Under the pieces are notes generated by a model, which ran no database searches, was not told where the DNA came from, and saw only the letters and a list, made by a program, of their open reading frames with translations. This document shows positions 40,948 through 47,859 of a stretch of 64,000 bases of DNA, piece by piece. The translations under genes and the position numbers were made by a program. The stretch is from Bacteroidaceae bacterium (GTDB lineage Bacteria; Bacteroidota; Bacteroidia; Bacteroidales; Bacteroidaceae), in NCBI GenBank assembly GCA_017557635.1, contig JAFYYH010000022.1, positions 236,710 through 300,709 of the forward strand, read 5' to 3'. The stretch's first letter is position 1. Each line of letters opens with the position of its first letter.

Positions 40948-41010
40948 TACCATTAGGGACGGTTCTTTTTGGTACCATTTTGTTGCCAACAAGAATCGTC
41001 CCTTTTATCA
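40945..41010. repeat. Family-1 hairpin between convergent genes
   Basis: TGATACCATTAGGGACGG (from 40945) pairs with the arm ending CGTCCCTTTTATCA (41010). TGA at 40945-40947 is the GH43 stop and TCA at 41008-41010 is the minus-strand stop of the next gene, so both stop codons form the ends of the hairpin. Confidence 0.85.
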
Positions 41011-42138
41011 TCTCAGAATCAGCGATCCGTATCCAAACATGCTGTAGGTAAACTGGAGTCCGATATTCACGGAGTAGGATTCCCTGAAAGGCTTGTAGTC
41101 CGACATGGCTCCGAACACCTTGAGTCTGGTCTTGAGCTTGACACCGCCAACATGCATGATGCTATACTGATTGACATTATTCCAATCCACCATAAATCCT
41201 GCTTCATACCTTACAGCTCCGGTCCGTCCGCTGTAATCGGGGTGTCGTTTGAGTAATGACTGACCTACTCCCACAAACGGAGTTACCGATACTTTATAAC
41301 CGTCATAGAGCAGACAGCCCAAATCAAAAACTATGTTCCGGTTATCGGCTGCACAATTACCCATCCAGGAGAATTGCAGAGCGCTCATCAATCGGCCCAA
41401 GTAGACGGTCCAACCCGCCGAAACACCGTGCAGGGCACCTATTCCCTGTCCCACGGGCTCAAGGTAAGACTCATTACTGTAGCCAATGGAGCGATCTAAC
41501 TCAAAATAATGGCATGCAGCCTCGTACTGACCGGCCAACTCATCCAGTTTTTCTTCCAAAACCACAGCCAGGGAGTCCATTAGTGAATTGTTGTACCTCT
41601 GCTCATATTCCAGAATGACAGCAGTATCACGTCCATAATTACTCTCCTTCATGAATCTATCGGCGGTAATGGAATCACAGAAAAACAGATCATCATCTAT
41701 AAGACATGAACGCGGATTTATATCATATCCCACTTCCACTGGACCGTCTATATCAATACACAGATTCTTCAGGCCCAAGATCCGGCCTTCATACTGTTCT
41801 ATGTTAAACATCACCTGAAGGTAACGCAACGTCCATTCATCACAATGATCCGGATCATACCATGACAGGACTCTGTTCAACGACTCGTCCACGATCCGAC
41901 AACTCACAGTCGTGTTCATAAATGGTATTGATTCGTAGTGATAATCTTCTTCTGTCACAATCCTGGCATACTCCTGCAAGCCGTCGGGAAGATGACGTAC
42001 GCTCAAATCATCCCAGGTTATGGGGTCATCGGCACTCCATTTCTTTAATCTGAGTTCCTCAAAATCCTGTCCTGATACGGACACGCTGGCCGACAACACC
42101 GTTATCAGCGCAATCAATCTTACAACCACCTTTCTCAT
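41008..42138 (-). CDS. Paralog 1 of degenerate DUF922-like / barrel protein family
   Basis: 376 aa. Signal peptide to about VSGQ (24). N-terminal domain with ITWDDLSVRHL (40-50), SWYDPDHCDEWTLRYLQVMF (92-111) and SNYGRDTAVILEYE (166-179), a layout like secreted DUF922 proteins; where that family has HExxH this has Tyr-Leu-x-x-Met. From about 217 on, alternating aromatic strands (VTPFVGVGQSLL, SYSVNIGLQFTYSMFGYG) look like a small outer-membrane barrel. The start MRKVVV overlaps the stop of paralog 2 by ATGA. Function unknown. Confidence 0.6.
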   Translation of the reverse strand: MRKVVVRLIALITVLSASVSVSGQDFEELRLKKWSADDPITWDDLSVRHLPDGLQEYARIVTEEDYHYESIPFMNTTVSCRIVDESLNRVLSWYDPDHCDEWTLRYLQVMFNIEQYEGRILGLKNLCIDIDGPVEVGYDINPRSCLIDDDLFFCDSITADRFMKESNYGRDTAVILEYEQRYNNSLMDSLAVVLEEKLDELAGQYEAACHYFELDRSIGYSNESYLEPVGQGIGALHGVSAGWTVYLGRLMSALQFSWMGNCAADNRNIVFDLGCLLYDGYKVSVTPFVGVGQSLLKRHPDYSGRTGAVRYEAGFMVDWNNVNQYSIMHVGGVKLKTRLKVFGAMSDYKPFRESYSVNIGLQFTYSMFGYGSLILR

Positions 42139-43457
42139 AACTTGAAGATATTCCATCGATCAAACTGATAAGCAACACCTATAAAGACCGAATATGCCGG
42201 GCCGATGTCCGCGAACTGTGTCCTGGCACCATACAGTCTGAGACTGACCTTCTGCTCTTCATATGATATGTCACGATCCGATTCGCTGATATGACGGGTC
42301 GATGACGGCCGCAGATTCCGGACTACCTTCCAGTCAACCTTGAGCCCCGCCTGAGTACGGAAACCATTCAGATCACTGTACTGATACCCGTCCTTAAGAA
42401 CGGGATCGTACTTATTCGTCTTCTGACTTACAGACATCGAGCCCACCCCGACAAACGGCGTCAGGGTCAGATAAGGTCTGTCTATCACCTTGTATCCCAA
42501 ATTGGCCGATACACGCCCAGACCTGGTCCTTCCGTCCATTCTCCAGTCATAGTCCAGTTCCGGGTCATGCCAGAAGTTACGCTGAGACACATGTCCTACA
42601 TCCAACCCGCCCATTTCAAGCTGAAGACAGATTTTCCTGTAACTGTAGCCCAGTCCTACAAAAAAGCCGGGCGTGGTAATGAGTTCACCGGGTACCCCAT
42701 CTATGAAATGCTCGTAGAACACCCCCGCGCTGAAAGAAAGGCCATGATTGTCATGATCGGTACGGACCACATACTCCGGATTTGGAGAAAGCGTATCCAG
42801 CATGGCTGCATATCGCAGCTCATACTGTTTTATCACTGCAGTGTCACGCCCATAACCGCTCTCCATTCTGAAGGTGCGCAGGGCGGCCTCTTTCTGATCC
42901 CTGAAGTAAAGGGATTTGGCCAGTCTTACCTGGCCGGAACTCATCAGTGCCTCCTTTTGGCGCCTGTAGGCCTCATATATGTCAAACTGAACCTGGTTGT
43001 AGCGCAGGCTCCAGTTGTCACACCGGTTTATGTCATACTTGGCTTGGCTCTTGAGAAAGTAAGTGTAGGATACCTTCTCGGTGTACTTGAGGTTACCTTC
43101 CTTCCGGAAAATCAGCTCATATCCCACACTGGGGAAAAACTCTATCACTGGATCAAGCTCCTCTTCAGTCAAAAGACGAATGTAATCACTATAGTTCCCG
43201 ACGACTCTTTGTGTATTGGCTGTGTCTGTTTTATCGGGAGAATAATCCGGAACGCTGATCGTGTCTGGAACAGGATACAATCTGTAGGTAGCGCCTTTTT
43301 CGACGCTGACCGGTCTCATATCCGACAACCTCAGCCCGCCCTGTTCCCATCGGACCGTATCGGACTGACGCATTTCCTGACCGCTTGCGCAAACACCCCC
43401 AAAGGAGAAAAACAGCGTCAGGAACACTCCGGCAACTGGAAAATTAATATTCATCAT
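42135..43457 (-). CDS. Paralog 2 of degenerate DUF922-like / barrel protein family
   Basis: 440 aa, the longest of the five. Signal peptide to about ASGQ (27). A divergent opening (VRWEQGGLRLSDMRPV) and an insert of about 60 residues precede YDINRCDNWSLRYNQVQFDI (141-160) and ESGYGRDTAVIKQYELRY (199-216). The HExxH positions read Tyr-Asn-Gln-Val-Gln. The C-terminal barrel-like part includes LTLTPFVGVGSMSVS and AYSVFIGVAYQFDRW. First gene of a two-gene minus-strand operon with paralog 1; no clear -7 box was found upstream. Confidence 0.6.
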   Translation of the reverse strand: MMNINFPVAGVFLTLFFSFGGVCASGQEMRQSDTVRWEQGGLRLSDMRPVSVEKGATYRLYPVPDTISVPDYSPDKTDTANTQRVVGNYSDYIRLLTEEELDPVIEFFPSVGYELIFRKEGNLKYTEKVSYTYFLKSQAKYDINRCDNWSLRYNQVQFDIYEAYRRQKEALMSSGQVRLAKSLYFRDQKEAALRTFRMESGYGRDTAVIKQYELRYAAMLDTLSPNPEYVVRTDHDNHGLSFSAGVFYEHFIDGVPGELITTPGFFVGLGYSYRKICLQLEMGGLDVGHVSQRNFWHDPELDYDWRMDGRTRSGRVSANLGYKVIDRPYLTLTPFVGVGSMSVSQKTNKYDPVLKDGYQYSDLNGFRTQAGLKVDWKVVRNLRPSSTRHISESDRDISYEEQKVSLRLYGARTQFADIGPAYSVFIGVAYQFDRWNIFKL

Positions 43458-43532
43458 GCAAACATCATCGGTCTCTACCTCTTCTATACTCCCTTCCCGC
43501 TATAGTTAAAACGGTACCATTAATCGCCGTTT

Positions 43533-43674
43533 CGCCAAAGTGTCCCACGCTCATCGGCCCAGAGAAGCTCCTAGTGCCGCTCGGTGTGGGACACACCCTC
43601 CAAATGAACTAGTGTCCCGCACTCACCGGGCTCAGAATACGCTCTGACGCGGGCGGGTGCGGGACACTTTGGCG
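43533..43674. repeat. Family-2 palindromic element, copy 2 (142 bp)
   Basis: CGCCAAAGTGTCCCACG at the left and GCGGGACACTTTGGCG at the right enclose two hairpins. It aligns along its length with the reverse complement of 6031-6170. It lies between the divergent paralog 2 promoter region and the rubrerythrin stop. Confidence 0.8.
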
Positions 43675-43689
43675 GAGTGCACAAAAGGA

Positions 43690-44226
43690 TCAATAGTTCT
43701 CCTTGTGAACCTCGAAGTAGGATTGCGGATGCTGGCAGACGGGGCAGATCTGCGGAGCCTTGGTGCCGACTACGATGTGACCGCAGTTGCGGCATTCCCA
43801 AACCTTAACCTCTGACTTCTCGAATACCTTGGCGGTCTCGACGTTCTTGAGCAGGGCGCGGTAACGCTCCTCGTGAGTCTTCTCGATGGCGCCGACCATG
43901 CGGAAACGTGCAGCCAGTACGGGGAATCCCTCCTGCTCGGCAGTCTTGGCAAAGCCCTCGTACATATCGGTCCACTCGTAATTCTCGCCGTCAGCGGCGG
44001 CAGCCAGGTTCTGGGCGGTATCGCCAATGCCCTCCAGCTCCTTGAACCAGAGTTTTGCGTGCTCTTTCTCGTTGTTTGCGGTCTCTTCAAAAATGGCTGC
44101 TATCTGCTCAAAACCCTCTTTCTTGGCCTTTGAAGCAAAATAGGTGTACTTGTTACGTGCCATTGACTCGCCGGCAAAAGCGGCCTCCAGATTCTTCTCT
44201 GTCTGTGTTCCTGAATACTTACTCAT
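43690..44226 (-). CDS. rbr: Rubrerythrin
   Basis: 178 aa. Ferritin-like diiron domain (about 1-135): [58 protein letters not shown]-terminal rubredoxin domain with two Cys pairs, [10 protein letters not shown] and [11 protein letters not shown], for one Fe. It reduces hydrogen peroxide in anaerobes. The start MSKYSGTQ is preferred; the longer frame upstream runs past a TATATTCG box (44277-44284). Divergent from paralog 3. Confidence 0.9.
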
Positions 44227-44276
44227 AATTCTTATAGTTGAAATGATTAATGGTCCTTTTTTTATGATTGCAAACG

Positions 44277-44284
44277 CGAATATA
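44277..44284 (-). promoter_or_regulatory. Promoter -7-like box for rubrerythrin
   Basis: TATATTCG on the minus strand, 50 bases upstream of the start, divergent from the box at 44298. Confidence 0.45.
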
Positions 44285-44297
44285 AGACATAAAACGA

Positions 44298-44305
44298 TAT
44301 CTTTG
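44298..44305 (+). promoter_or_regulatory. Promoter -7 box for paralog 3-5 operon
   Basis: TATCTTTG, 21 bases upstream of the ATG at 44327. Confidence 0.65.
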
Positions 44306-44326
44306 CAATGTACATTCAAGAACCTT

Positions 44327-45520
44327 ATGAGTCCGATAATAAAACGCAGGACAACCCCTAGGTTGCTCCTACTCCAGTTTGCAACATTACTTCTTCCATG
44401 CCATGCTTTCGGTCAGGAAGCTGTCCCCGAAATGATTTCACCACTAAAAAGCCAGGACGGTTCCCAAAAGCCTGCAGTCATCTGGCAGGAAACACGTGAC
44501 CTTACATGGGATGACTTCACCCCTGTGGAAGGACTGGAAAGCACATCACGAAACAACATCCGCATGATGCTCAGGCGGACTCCCCGTGAACTCAAAATAA
44601 AGAACACCACATACGCATGGGAAGAACATACCATAGCGGTCAACCCCAATAAGAGTCTGTACAATCCCCAAACAGCCACCGATGGAGAACTCAGATACTT
44701 CAACGTGCTGTTTGACATTGCGGAACTCGCAGTCAGACTGACCAATGACGGCCCGTTCTACGACGAGGATGCCGACAGACTGTTCAACAGATACGTCAAT
44801 GCGTGCATGGATGCATTTGAACTGGAAAGCGGATACGGCAAATACACCGACGTGGTAACGGAATATGAGAAAGAGGTAAAGGAGCAACTGGAAAACAACC
44901 CCAGGAAAGAGTTCTCTCCCGAAATGCTCGATGCCGATTTCAAAAACGGTTTCTCCGAACATATTGACTATACCAACAACACCATACTAGGAAAAGGGGC
45001 CGATATCTTCCAGCCGTTCAACGGATTTTCAATGGGTATGGATGGATATTTCAACAAGGTCAAGGTTGACGGAACCATTGATTTCCTATGGAGCAGGACT
45101 CTCGTATCCGGACTCTTCAATGATACCCAGCATGATTATGACTGGGTCCAGGGACGCAAGACAGAAAAGTTCGGAGCCTCCCTGAAGGTGGGATATCGGT
45201 TGTATTCAAATAACTCTATCGCCCTGTACCCCGTAGCGGGTATCGGCTTCTATGATTATCGCCAGAACTCCAAAGACCCGGAAAAGAAGGAGGAACGGCT
45301 CAAAAGCACCATCGCGTCAGCACCCTGCTGGACAGTCGGACTGGACACAGACTGGACATTGTCAAGGAAGATCACTCCGGCAAGCATCGGTTTCAATGTC
45401 CTCAGGCTCAAACTCTACGGCACTTATGAGAAGAACCGGATAATCGGAGATGTCTGGTTACTGAATGCCGGTCTGGCATACGTGTTCGGATTCAAAACTA
45501 AACCCGGTTCCATACTATGA
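44327..45520 (+). CDS. Paralog 3 of degenerate DUF922-like / barrel protein family
   Basis: 397 aa. Signal peptide to about AFGQ (30). [13 protein letters not shown] (58-70) is closest to the DUF922 opening. Then [18 protein letters not shown] (121-138), which keeps the FDIAEL flank of the protease motif while HExxH has become Tyr-Phe-Asn-Val-Leu, and [17 protein letters not shown] (165-181). Barrel-like C-terminus with [14 protein letters not shown]. The N-terminal MSPIIKRR matches paralog 5 (MCPIIKRR). The ATG is fixed by the promoter at 44298. Overlaps paralog 4 by ATGA. Confidence 0.65.
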
Positions 45521-46662
45521 AAACAATGAAACGATATAACTCCGATATAGTAAGATGCCTGCTGCTAGTTCTGATAGCCTTCAGTACGACATATTCACAC
45601 GCAGGCCTGCCCAGAATCATAAACCCCAGAATGTGGAACGGGCAGAATGTAACATGGAATGATTTCCAGGTACGTCATATTCAGACCGACACACTGAAGC
45701 CGTCATACATAAGCCTGGACATAGAAGATGAATTAAAGGTCAAGTGGACAGGAAACACCAGGTTCCAGTACACTGATTTCACCGCATACATGTATCCCAC
45801 ATCTTCGTGGTATGATCCTGACAAGGTGACCGAATGGGACCTTCTGAGCAACAACGTCCTTTTTGACCTTGTTGAACTGCATGCCAGGATGTTACAGAAA
45901 GAATACAACCGCAGTTACGATTATGTAAGCCGTCAGCAGGCAAAAGATCACGCCTGGAATGAAGCACAGCAGCGTTTCCGCGAGTTTGAGCTGCAGACAG
46001 ATTATCAGAGAGATACCGCAGCCCTGGCCCTCTTTGAACGGAACATTCAGAGAGAGCTCAACATGCTTCCGCGAACCGAGCCCACACTCCCCCCGTTGGA
46101 TTATCGATGGCACTATGGCTTCCAGTTGGGTTATTGGCGCATGGATCCGCTCAAAGAAGCCCGCAACGACCTGAGTCCCATAAACGGTTTCAACTTTGAA
46201 TTCATAGCTGGCCACAATAGACTTGAATTCGGAATCACCATCAAATCCAGCTCCACCGATATCAGCCAACCCGCATATTTCAGCGACAACGATTATGTAT
46301 GGAGGGCCGATGAAGCCACCCTGGCAATAAATGCCCTGAATCTGGGATACAGGGTATATTCCGGACAGTATCTCCGTCTGGTGCCGTTCACAAATATCGG
46401 CACCGCCACTCTCATGCAGAAAGATCCCGACTTCCCGGACGATTACGAAAAGAACCATAAGGAGAAGGGATTCAACCTCGATGCCGGCCTGAACCTGGAC
46501 TACGTAGTAATGCGTGACATCCGTCAACTCACCAATGCAGACGAGTTCTTCCTCCGTCTCAAGCCTTATGTATCATACACTAAGATAGGCGGCAGGGAAA
46601 TCTGGTCAGCCAACGTAGGTATCAGTTTCTGTATAGATATGATATTCCTAAAAAACTTTTAA
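45517..46662 (+). CDS. Paralog 4 of degenerate DUF922-like / barrel protein family
   Basis: 381 aa. Signal peptide to about SHAG (30). NVTWNDFQVRHI (44-55), SSWYDPDKVTEWDLLSNNVL (96-115) followed by FDLVELHARML, then ELQTDYQRDTAALALFE (158-174). The metal-site positions read Ser-Asn-Asn-Val-Leu. Barrel-like part from about 200, including LRLVPFTNIGTATLMQ and IWSANVGISFCID. Coupled to paralog 3 and followed after 15 bases by paralog 5. Confidence 0.65.
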   Translation: MKTMKRYNSDIVRCLLLVLIAFSTTYSHAGLPRIINPRMWNGQNVTWNDFQVRHIQTDTLKPSYISLDIEDELKVKWTGNTRFQYTDFTAYMYPTSSWYDPDKVTEWDLLSNNVLFDLVELHARMLQKEYNRSYDYVSRQQAKDHAWNEAQQRFREFELQTDYQRDTAALALFERNIQRELNMLPRTEPTLPPLDYRWHYGFQLGYWRMDPLKEARNDLSPINGFNFEFIAGHNRLEFGITIKSSSTDISQPAYFSDNDYVWRADEATLAINALNLGYRVYSGQYLRLVPFTNIGTATLMQKDPDFPDDYEKNHKEKGFNLDAGLNLDYVVMRDIRQLTNADEFFLRLKPYVSYTKIGGREIWSANVGISFCIDMIFLKNF

Positions 46663-46677
46663 CCAATAATTTAGCCT

Positions 46678-47859
46678 ATGTGTCCAATAATCAAACGCAG
46701 GAAAGCATTCACTATCAGCCTGCTCCTGTTTGCAGCATGTCAACTTCAGCTGTCAGCTAAGAAACACGAGAATCTAAAGAACTGGAATGAAGGTCCTCTT
46801 ACATGGGCCGATTACCACGAGGCAGAGTTGTCGCCTCTGGTGAGCGACTTCGCCCCTTCGGTATTCCAGTTTAATGCCTCCAAAAAGAGAGTCAGAATCC
46901 AGAATTATAAGTTTGTCTATTATCAGGTGGACGCTTCACTGAACAAGGACAAATCCTATTATGACCCTGCCAGGACCGATGATTGGGATCTTAAAGCCAG
47001 ACAGGCTGTATTTGACACCTGGGAACTCTATTCCAGATACGCCCAGTCCCGTTCCTTAGGCGAGACGACCTTGACATACAACAAGACCGTTGAGGATTAC
47101 ATGAACAGAGCCCAAAAAGACATAGCAAAATTCCAGCAGGAGAGTAATCAGTTCAAAGACACCGCTGTAATCAACAAATACGGAGCATCTGTCCGTAACC
47201 AGCTTGAAAGCACCAAAAGAAAGACTCCTGACCTCTCAATGGCTGACGTTCCTGCATACAGGTATGGCGTCTATATCGGAGCAGAACATGAAATCCTTAT
47301 GGGAAAAGCCGGCGATCAGTTAAATAACATGTACGGCTTCAATGTCGGCATTGATTACATCACAAAGAGAAAATGGTACCTTGACTTTGGCATGTCAGCT
47401 AACTTTACTGAACTCAAAGTCGATGATTTTTACCATGATGTCGGATACGCTTACGACTGGGTGACAAATAAATCGGTCACAAACCTTCGTTTGTACTTTA
47501 ACGTGGGTCATTTACTGGATGTCAATCAGTACCTCAGATTCATCCCATTTGCCGGAATATCATATTCCAGACTTCAACAGCAATCCGATATGATTGACCC
47601 AAGCAGCCAGAACTACTCTTATCTCATGAGTAATCTTAACTGCATGGCCGTCCAGGCCGGCGTAAACGCAGACTTTATGATCAGACACAGCATAACTCCC
47701 GATGACATTACTGACACCAGTATAAGATTCAAGTTATACGGAGCGTATGAAGACTGGGGTACCGGCCATAAGGCATACTCTGTAAACCTTGGCCTGGCCA
47801 TCAAATTCGATACCTACAGTTTCGTTAATGGGATTTTTATACCCATTATCATATTCTGA
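46678..47859 (+). CDS. Paralog 5 of degenerate DUF922-like / barrel protein family
   Basis: 393 aa. Signal peptide to about LSAK (28). GPLTWADYHEAEL (39-51), SYYDPARTDDWDLKARQAVF (93-112) then DTWELYSRY, and FKDTAVINKYG. Metal-site positions read Ala-Arg-Gln-Ala-Val. Barrel-like C-terminal half with YLRFIPFAGISYSRL and KAYSVNLGLAIKFD. Last of the three plus-strand paralogs; its final 11 bases overlap the convergent mfd gene. Confidence 0.65.
   Translation: MCPIIKRRKAFTISLLLFAACQLQLSAKKHENLKNWNEGPLTWADYHEAELSPLVSDFAPSVFQFNASKKRVRIQNYKFVYYQVDASLNKDKSYYDPARTDDWDLKARQAVFDTWELYSRYAQSRSLGETTLTYNKTVEDYMNRAQKDIAKFQQESNQFKDTAVINKYGASVRNQLESTKRKTPDLSMADVPAYRYGVYIGAEHEILMGKAGDQLNNMYGFNVGIDYITKRKWYLDFGMSANFTELKVDDFYHDVGYAYDWVTNKSVTNLRLYFNVGHLLDVNQYLRFIPFAGISYSRLQQQSDMIDPSSQNYSYLMSNLNCMAVQAGVNADFMIRHSITPDDITDTSIRFKLYGAYEDWGTGHKAYSVNLGLAIKFDTYSFVNGIFIPIIIF

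Follow-up and report, generated by a model that had tools for sequence, protein, structure and literature searches.

Five neighbouring genes of a Bacteroidaceae genome encode exported proteins that combine a peptidase-like DUF922 domain, from which the metal site has been lost, with a C-terminal half that looks like an outer-membrane barrel. The genes, named w1 to w5 here, lie at positions 41,008 to 47,859 of a 64,000-nucleotide stretch of contig JAFYYH010000022.1 (assembly GCA_017557635.1; contig positions 236,710 to 300,709), and this whole stretch is called the window below. We lean towards the view that w1-w5 and their relatives are exported pseudopeptidases anchored in the outer membrane, in which the dead domain would serve as a periplasmic module for non-cutting binding or as a scaffold.

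All five open reading frames (ORFs) are present where an earlier note on this DNA had placed them. w1 (41008..42156, 382 residues) and w2 (42135..43457, 440 residues) are on the minus strand, and w3 (44327..45520, 397 residues), w4 (45517..46662, 381 residues) and w5 (46678..47859, 393 residues) are on the plus strand; the frame of w3 is nested in a longer mechanical ORF starting at 44144. The proteins are divergent full-length paralogues with pairwise identities of 22-28%. BLASTP aligns all 10 pairs with E-values (E) of 5e-7 to 1e-28 (database size set to 1e6 letters), and leave-one-out profiles score each protein at 102-180 bits, against 11.3 for the best shuffle (200 shuffles per protein). 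These results bear out the paralogy claimed in the note, and the signal peptides that it described are matched by signal-peptide-like N-termini in all five proteins, as judged by eye. The shared motifs that it listed are present, but they are looser than claimed in several members: w2 opens with RLSDM instead of W-x-D-F, the YDP block reads YDI in w2 and YNP in w3, the YG block reads YQ in w4 and QF in w5, and the PFxGxG block reads PVAGIG in w3, PFTNIG in w4 and PFAGIS in w5. The note had also called the family locally expanded, which holds at the level of the genus only, because each paralogue falls in a different subclade together with orthologues from other species in the tree described below. 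A recent expansion within this genome was rejected for the same reason. As far as the sequences tell, the paralogy of w1-w5 looks older than the species.

The N-halves are homologous to DUF922 (PF06037), a family of mostly single-domain exported proteins from Bacteroidota and other bacteria, and the homology is co-linear over the domain in profile-profile comparison. The N-halves of 42 barrel-fused proteins matched 40 HExxH-containing DUF922 domains over 153 columns, with Prob 99.7 and E 4.1e-25. As a control, the C-halves were compared with the same intact profile and gave Prob 0.3. When the two intact rows reached via the family profile were removed, the 38 rows found by PF06037 gave Prob 99.7 and E 3.1e-25, and the five window proteins alone gave Prob 98.8 and E 4.2e-17. 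Furthermore, a profile of w1-w5 run in 198 genomes of the order matched both short proteins and full-length relatives, and in two genomes, G065 (E 6e-7 and 7e-9) and G046, its matches overlap a PF06037-found gene. Both groups share the W-x-D-F opening, a Ser before the site, the block L-x-x-x-Q-x-x-[FY]-[DN]-x-x-E and a later [ED]-[ST]-x-x-[GS]. A chance resemblance, or an unrelated fold with a few common motifs, is therefore highly improbable in our judgement: co-linear matches of Prob 98.8 to 99.7 and intermediates such as the tandem pair at L120, one intact and one dead, argue against it. In its favour, none of w1-w5 has a Pfam match over the cut-off or is claimed by NCBIfam, and PF06037 itself matches none of them at E up to 10 and nothing in their own genome. 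Thus, of the profile check proposed in the note, the search with the Pfam model found no match, and the comparison with members of the family revealed the homology.

The two sets behind these comparisons were defined as follows. Of the 40 intact domains, 36 come from loci L142-L184 and 4 from elsewhere; PF06037 led to 38 of them and the family profile to the other 2. They were picked by the string HE..H[FY], so the 100% conservation of its columns follows from the selection, and Asp149 and Gln161 were unselected. Seven of the 43 loci L142-L184 were left out by the string or by ORF picking (L142, L143, L144, L146, L148, L179 and L180). Six of them, all except L179, have HExxH followed by at most 89 residues, and L179 is an open frame of 2442 residues. 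The search table lists it (G621:C11:511453-514266) as a frame of 2614 residues with two PF06037 matches. The 42 barrel-fused proteins were taken by locus and length from 64 matches, and the remaining 22 were inspected separately. These comprise eight fused proteins (L103, L107 twice, L108, L109, L110, L118 and L119), one truncated protein (L099_3141), three barrel-only proteins, five DUF922-only proteins (two of them intact), two with CarboxypepD_reg and three with another N-domain. Adding L186 gives nine further fused proteins, and adding L118 and L119 to the 42 gives the 44 rows that were scored and placed in the tree.

A zincin-like fold was predicted for DUF922 by Lenart et al. from its HExxH motif and a fold-recognition match to thermolysin; the excerpted text gives 100 for HExxH in the per-cent column of Table 1, and presents the family's role as a protease as a prediction (PMC3650047). 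Unlike these domains, the fused proteins lack HExxH and Gln161, rarely have Asp149, and carry the barrel-like half. HExxH is absent from all 42 barrel-fused proteins and from the nine further ones (0/51). Its positions read YLQVM in w1 (41809..41823, minus strand), YNQVQ in w2 (42987..43001, minus), YFNVL followed by FDIAEL in w3 (44696..44710, plus), SNNVL in w4 (45847..45861, plus) and ARQAV in w5 (46996..47010, plus). These are the replacements that had been reported, and the alignment to intact DUF922 confirms that the lost site had been placed correctly. Among the 44 barrel rows, His occurs at neither metal position and the catalytic Glu is kept in four. The intact set has Tyr148 in 38 and Phe148 in 2, Asp149 in 38 and Glu149 in 2, and Gln161 in 40/40. 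The barrel rows have no Gln at position 161 (0/44), and position 149 is Asp in 5 and Glu in 9; in w1-w5 it is never Asp, and is Glu in w3 and w4. The change at position 148, hydrophobic in 43 of 44 with 28 aromatic, is mild compared with the intact set. The loss is concerted: counting the two His, the Glu, Asp149 and Gln161, 37 of the 44 rows keep none, five keep one and two keep two. The flanks persist, as the note had stated. W40 is kept in 38 of the 42 proteins, S85 in 37, L95 in 40, D103 in 38, E106 in 39 and R110 in 39, and next to the site the Gln after HE is kept in 33/42, a Phe or Tyr in 41/42 and an Asp or Asn in 42/42.

Counting Tyr, 39 of the 44 rows have a hydrophobic or aromatic residue at the first-His position (Tyr in 26), 26 at the second-His position and all 44 at position 161. 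We infer that the polar metal centre was replaced by hydrophobic packing. The groove might instead be enzymatic with other residues or another metal. Residues conserved in the barrel family alone (Arg96 in 32/42, the Asn of a GN turn in 38/42 and Glu165 in 33/42) and an acidic residue at position 149 in 14/44 rows would fit such altered catalysis, but it is very unlikely given the hydrophobic character of the first-His, 148 and 161 positions and the missing metal-position His.

Related cases are known. The CLCA family and the inactive ADAMs are other zincin families and are not known to have an outer-membrane barrel. Their HExxH substitutions are likewise non-random within maintained families, and conserved inactive zincins are noted in families other than DUF922 in the part of the survey covered here (PMC3650047). 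In bacterial pseudo-orthocaspases, the catalytic His of a protease-like family has become Tyr, in a caspase fold rather than a zincin fold, according to an excerpt of PMC6426788. A DUF922 protein also appears in a vesicle table in part of PMC11788153, the one other paper found to use the term. We recognised no description of a dead or barrel-fused DUF922 in the one open library covered.

To follow the loss, a tree of 91 DUF922-type domains was built after removal of the seven trait columns. It splits (100/98) the 44 barrel rows and two dead domains linked to CarboxypepD_reg from the 40 intact domains and five dead or partly dead single-domain proteins. The dead L043 and the intact L024, which lie in tandem in one genome, are sisters (99/86). 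With L043 included, a single loss for all dead DUF922 domains is rejected (p-AU 0.0024), and a single clade of dead domains without L043 is not rejected (p-AU 0.447). On this tree the metal site is lost at least twice, because one dead clade is rejected with L043 included; the second DUF922 lineage, that of L043, lost it independently. Nor does the test reject a single clade of the 44 barrel rows (p-AU 0.514), although that label takes two changes on the unconstrained tree. Several single loci were seen beside these. Adjacent DUF922 genes at L120:3343-3912 and L120:3924-4490 read HEQIH and HAQIF, and the HAQIF one also lacks the later Asp and Gln. L048 shows a partial loss, HEQVL. L123:4360-6135 and L124:3554-5314 encode proteins of about 590 residues with a C-terminal dead DUF922-like domain, and L124 has an N-terminal CarboxypepD_reg. 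A w1 relative at L099:3141-3728 is truncated behind the DUF922 half. Taken as a set, intact members, the partial loss of L048, the L120 tandem pair and a large clade of dead domains with a putative membrane anchor make the order in which active-site residues were lost and replaced testable.

The C-halves (about 41011-41571 in w1, 42138-42773 in w2, 44915-45517 in w3, 46084-46659 in w4 and 47230-47856 in w5) have barrel-like features, as had been proposed. In column-averaged hydropathy, alternating windows make up 24% of the C-half and 5% of the N-half; the shuffle mean is 5%, and 0/500 shuffles are as high. On a hand-adjusted hydropathy scale, seven alternation peaks and a weaker eighth in the PFAGIG region mark the strands, with stretches of about 18, 0, 29, 4, 22, 17 and 8 residues between them. 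This is mostly a long-short pattern, with the sixth and seventh contrary to it; in w1, strand 3 and the next loop are short by about 20 residues. Pfam searches of the C-halves matched OMP_b-brl (PF13505) in 5/19 members (best 5.9e-6) and the Autotransporter beta-domain (PF03797) in 6/19 (best 4.4e-5). The C-halves of other relatives matched OMP_b-brl in 1/15 (2.5e-5) and OMP_b-brl_2 (PF13568) in 3/15 (best 0.0048), and w3 and w5 matched barrel families at 0.013 and 0.023, below the cut-off. The C-half thus resembles OMP_b-brl, OMP_b-brl_2 and Autotransporter domains in strand alternation and in weak profile matches; it differs from them in the sub-gathering scores of the window proteins and in the dead peptidase-like domain fused N-terminally. 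This suggests that it forms an outer-membrane barrel of about eight strands.

Several observations speak against a membrane-anchored pseudopeptidase of this kind. The barrel matches of the window proteins are all under the Pfam gathering score, and unrelated families (Cyclin_C, DUF7091 and citrate lyase ligase, 1/19 each) also matched C-halves weakly. The inner turn predicted in front of strand 7 exceeds in length the outer loop predicted behind that strand, the hydropathy scale was adjusted by hand, and a C-terminal Phe is found in just two of w1-w5. PDB searches gave no solved relative (best E 0.068), and the data indicate no ligand or partner.

The barrel-like half also occurs apart from DUF922. 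The family profile matches the C-halves of two Bacteroidales proteins of about 390-400 residues, L125 (E 5e-16) and L126 (E 2e-16), both values among searched ORFs, and leaves their differing N-halves unmatched. Barrel-only relatives of about 250 residues without the DUF922 half are found at L105:4797-6317 and L106:5507-6277. Among intact proteins (n=40), 77-97 residues follow HExxH, too few for a barrel, and in seven intact proteins of 271-397 residues DUF922 is at the C-terminal end.

An eight-stranded barrel has both chain ends on the periplasmic side of the outer membrane. For this reason the dead N-domain most likely lies in the periplasm, and most of the loop pattern is in keeping with that. 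The note had instead described it as displayed, which we do not uphold. In our proposal, the barrel would span the outer membrane and have its two ends on the inner side, the dead domain would act in the periplasm by non-cutting binding or as a scaffold, and the paralogues of the genus may differ in partner. A non-catalytic periplasmic binding module is our best guess of the function.

The rates of change bear on the alternative of surface display, in which the N-domain would be outside, via or around the barrel, as an adhesin or binding domain whose paralogues diversify against host, phage or competitors. Against their L098 orthologues, w3, w4 and w5 have dN (non-synonymous divergence) of 0.43, 0.37 and 0.20 and dS (synonymous divergence) of 1.80, 1.55 and 1.11; the flanking ligase has dN 0.012 and dS 0.19. 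Against L100, w5 has dN 0.21 and dS 1.04, and mfd has dN 0.033 and dS 0.53. Four comparisons with saturated silent sites were left out (w5-L097, w5-L096, w4-L097 and w2-L099). The orthologues are thus far more divergent than the flanking ligase and mfd, which would suit surface display, as would a match number of 0 to 6 across the genus. However, dN/dS for w3, w4 and w5 against the nearest orthologues is 0.18-0.24, with values of dS >1 being imprecise, and the three genes are therefore kept. A whole-gene dN/dS below 0.25 does not favour diversification, and a barrel that looks eight-stranded is generally too narrow to export a domain. Nor are the predicted outer loops consistently the most variable parts: they are less conserved than the strands in w5 and w4 and more conserved in w3 and w2 (w2 from two sequences, w3 and w4 from three), and surface-loop hypervariation was dropped as inconsistent. 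Surface display is thus doubtful. The excess divergence over the flanks, silent sites included, points to old alleles, strain exchange or gene turnover.

Another alternative is that the dead proteins regulate an active DUF922 enzyme of the same cell or act as its decoy, roles suggested for inactive metalloproteases in the excerpted text of PMC3650047. This is unlikely, because PF06037 at 1e-3 matched 0/36 genomes with the barrel family, in a search whose controls gave no match either. The same search matches 39/345 genomes of the phylum. Since 5/198 genomes of the order match, about one would be expected among the 36, most of which are incomplete, so the 0/36 is weak.

The fusion of a dead DUF922 domain to a barrel is an old, maintained Bacteroidales protein family and not a local oddity, because the design recurs in other Bacteroidales. 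Matches occur in 13/24 relatives of the genus besides the own genome, with one to six each, some of them barrel-only and many assemblies incomplete. In the own taxonomic family 13/151 genomes match, the own one included. In the order, 61/393 genomes match some part, and full-length members are present in 15 (the own genome included, and one across two contig pieces), with single full-length members in other Bacteroidales families. One full-length member, L186 (G804; E 1.2e-28), was found outside the order, and its site reads YNQVL. The nearest six named loci are from uncultured Bacteroidales, Bacteroidaceae and Prevotellaceae metagenome-assembled genomes (UBA1179, three RUG, sheep reticulum and red deer).

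The genome survey that the note had called for also revealed recurrent neighbours. The gene is directly beside an argF'-type carbamoyltransferase in 10 of the 14 other full-length genomes; argF' was recognised by likeness, and the three loci tested with NCBIfam were each assigned an N-acetylornithine carbamoyltransferase. At this site proA adjoins in 7/7 loci read by eye (L128-L134; tested in L132 and L133). The distant full-length members L118 (G365) and L119 (G302) immediately follow ilvN, with ilvB and ilvD ahead of it and argG further along (assignments tested on L119), and in L116 and L117 the gene is beside neither argF' nor ilvN. Amino-acid synthesis genes thus adjoin the gene in 12/14 full-length genomes outside the own taxonomic family. 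This neighbourhood may come from descent alone. More tentatively, and with more doubt than belief, we suggest that loss of the peptidase and gain of the outer-membrane anchor were one ancient step, which turned DUF922 into a tethered receptor or scaffold of the periplasm. This protein would then have spread through Bacteroidales, settled next to argF' or ilvN in most other families, and multiplied in one gut genus with divergent partner specificity. If true, the family would represent bacterial pseudopeptidase receptors of a class that we did not find described. The family also gives a frame for gut Bacteroidales proteins that are outside curated families. To our knowledge, pseudoenzymes of the bacterial envelope are little explored.

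The locus is flanked by genes for a GH43 enzyme (39415) and Mfd (mfd, 47849) in an assembly of 2.44 Mb in 24 contigs that is 89% complete. The overlaps are 22 bases for w1 and w2 and 4 bases for w3 and w4, and 15 bases separate w4 from w5. Because of these overlaps and the short gap, w1-w2 and w3-w4-w5 are likely two short operons. Between the two arms lies a rubrerythrin gene (43690..44226, minus strand), whose identity was borne out by PF02915 (4e-26). Rubrerythrin adjoins barrel-family genes on 7/11 genus contigs that share the site, as counted by eye. On the mfd side, the site looks variable among genus relatives. For an empty-site comparison, the flanking ligase was searched in six match-free genus genomes, and a close copy (88%) was found only in G491, near a contig end. 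At L139:4052-5664, and also at L097 and L104, a HipA-type kinase and a helix-turn-helix partner, which the present locus lacks, lie between mfd and the barrel genes (assignment tested on L139). In the gap of about 230 bases between w2 and rubrerythrin (43458-43689), gtgtccc and gggacac words occur in both orientations, as seen by eye.

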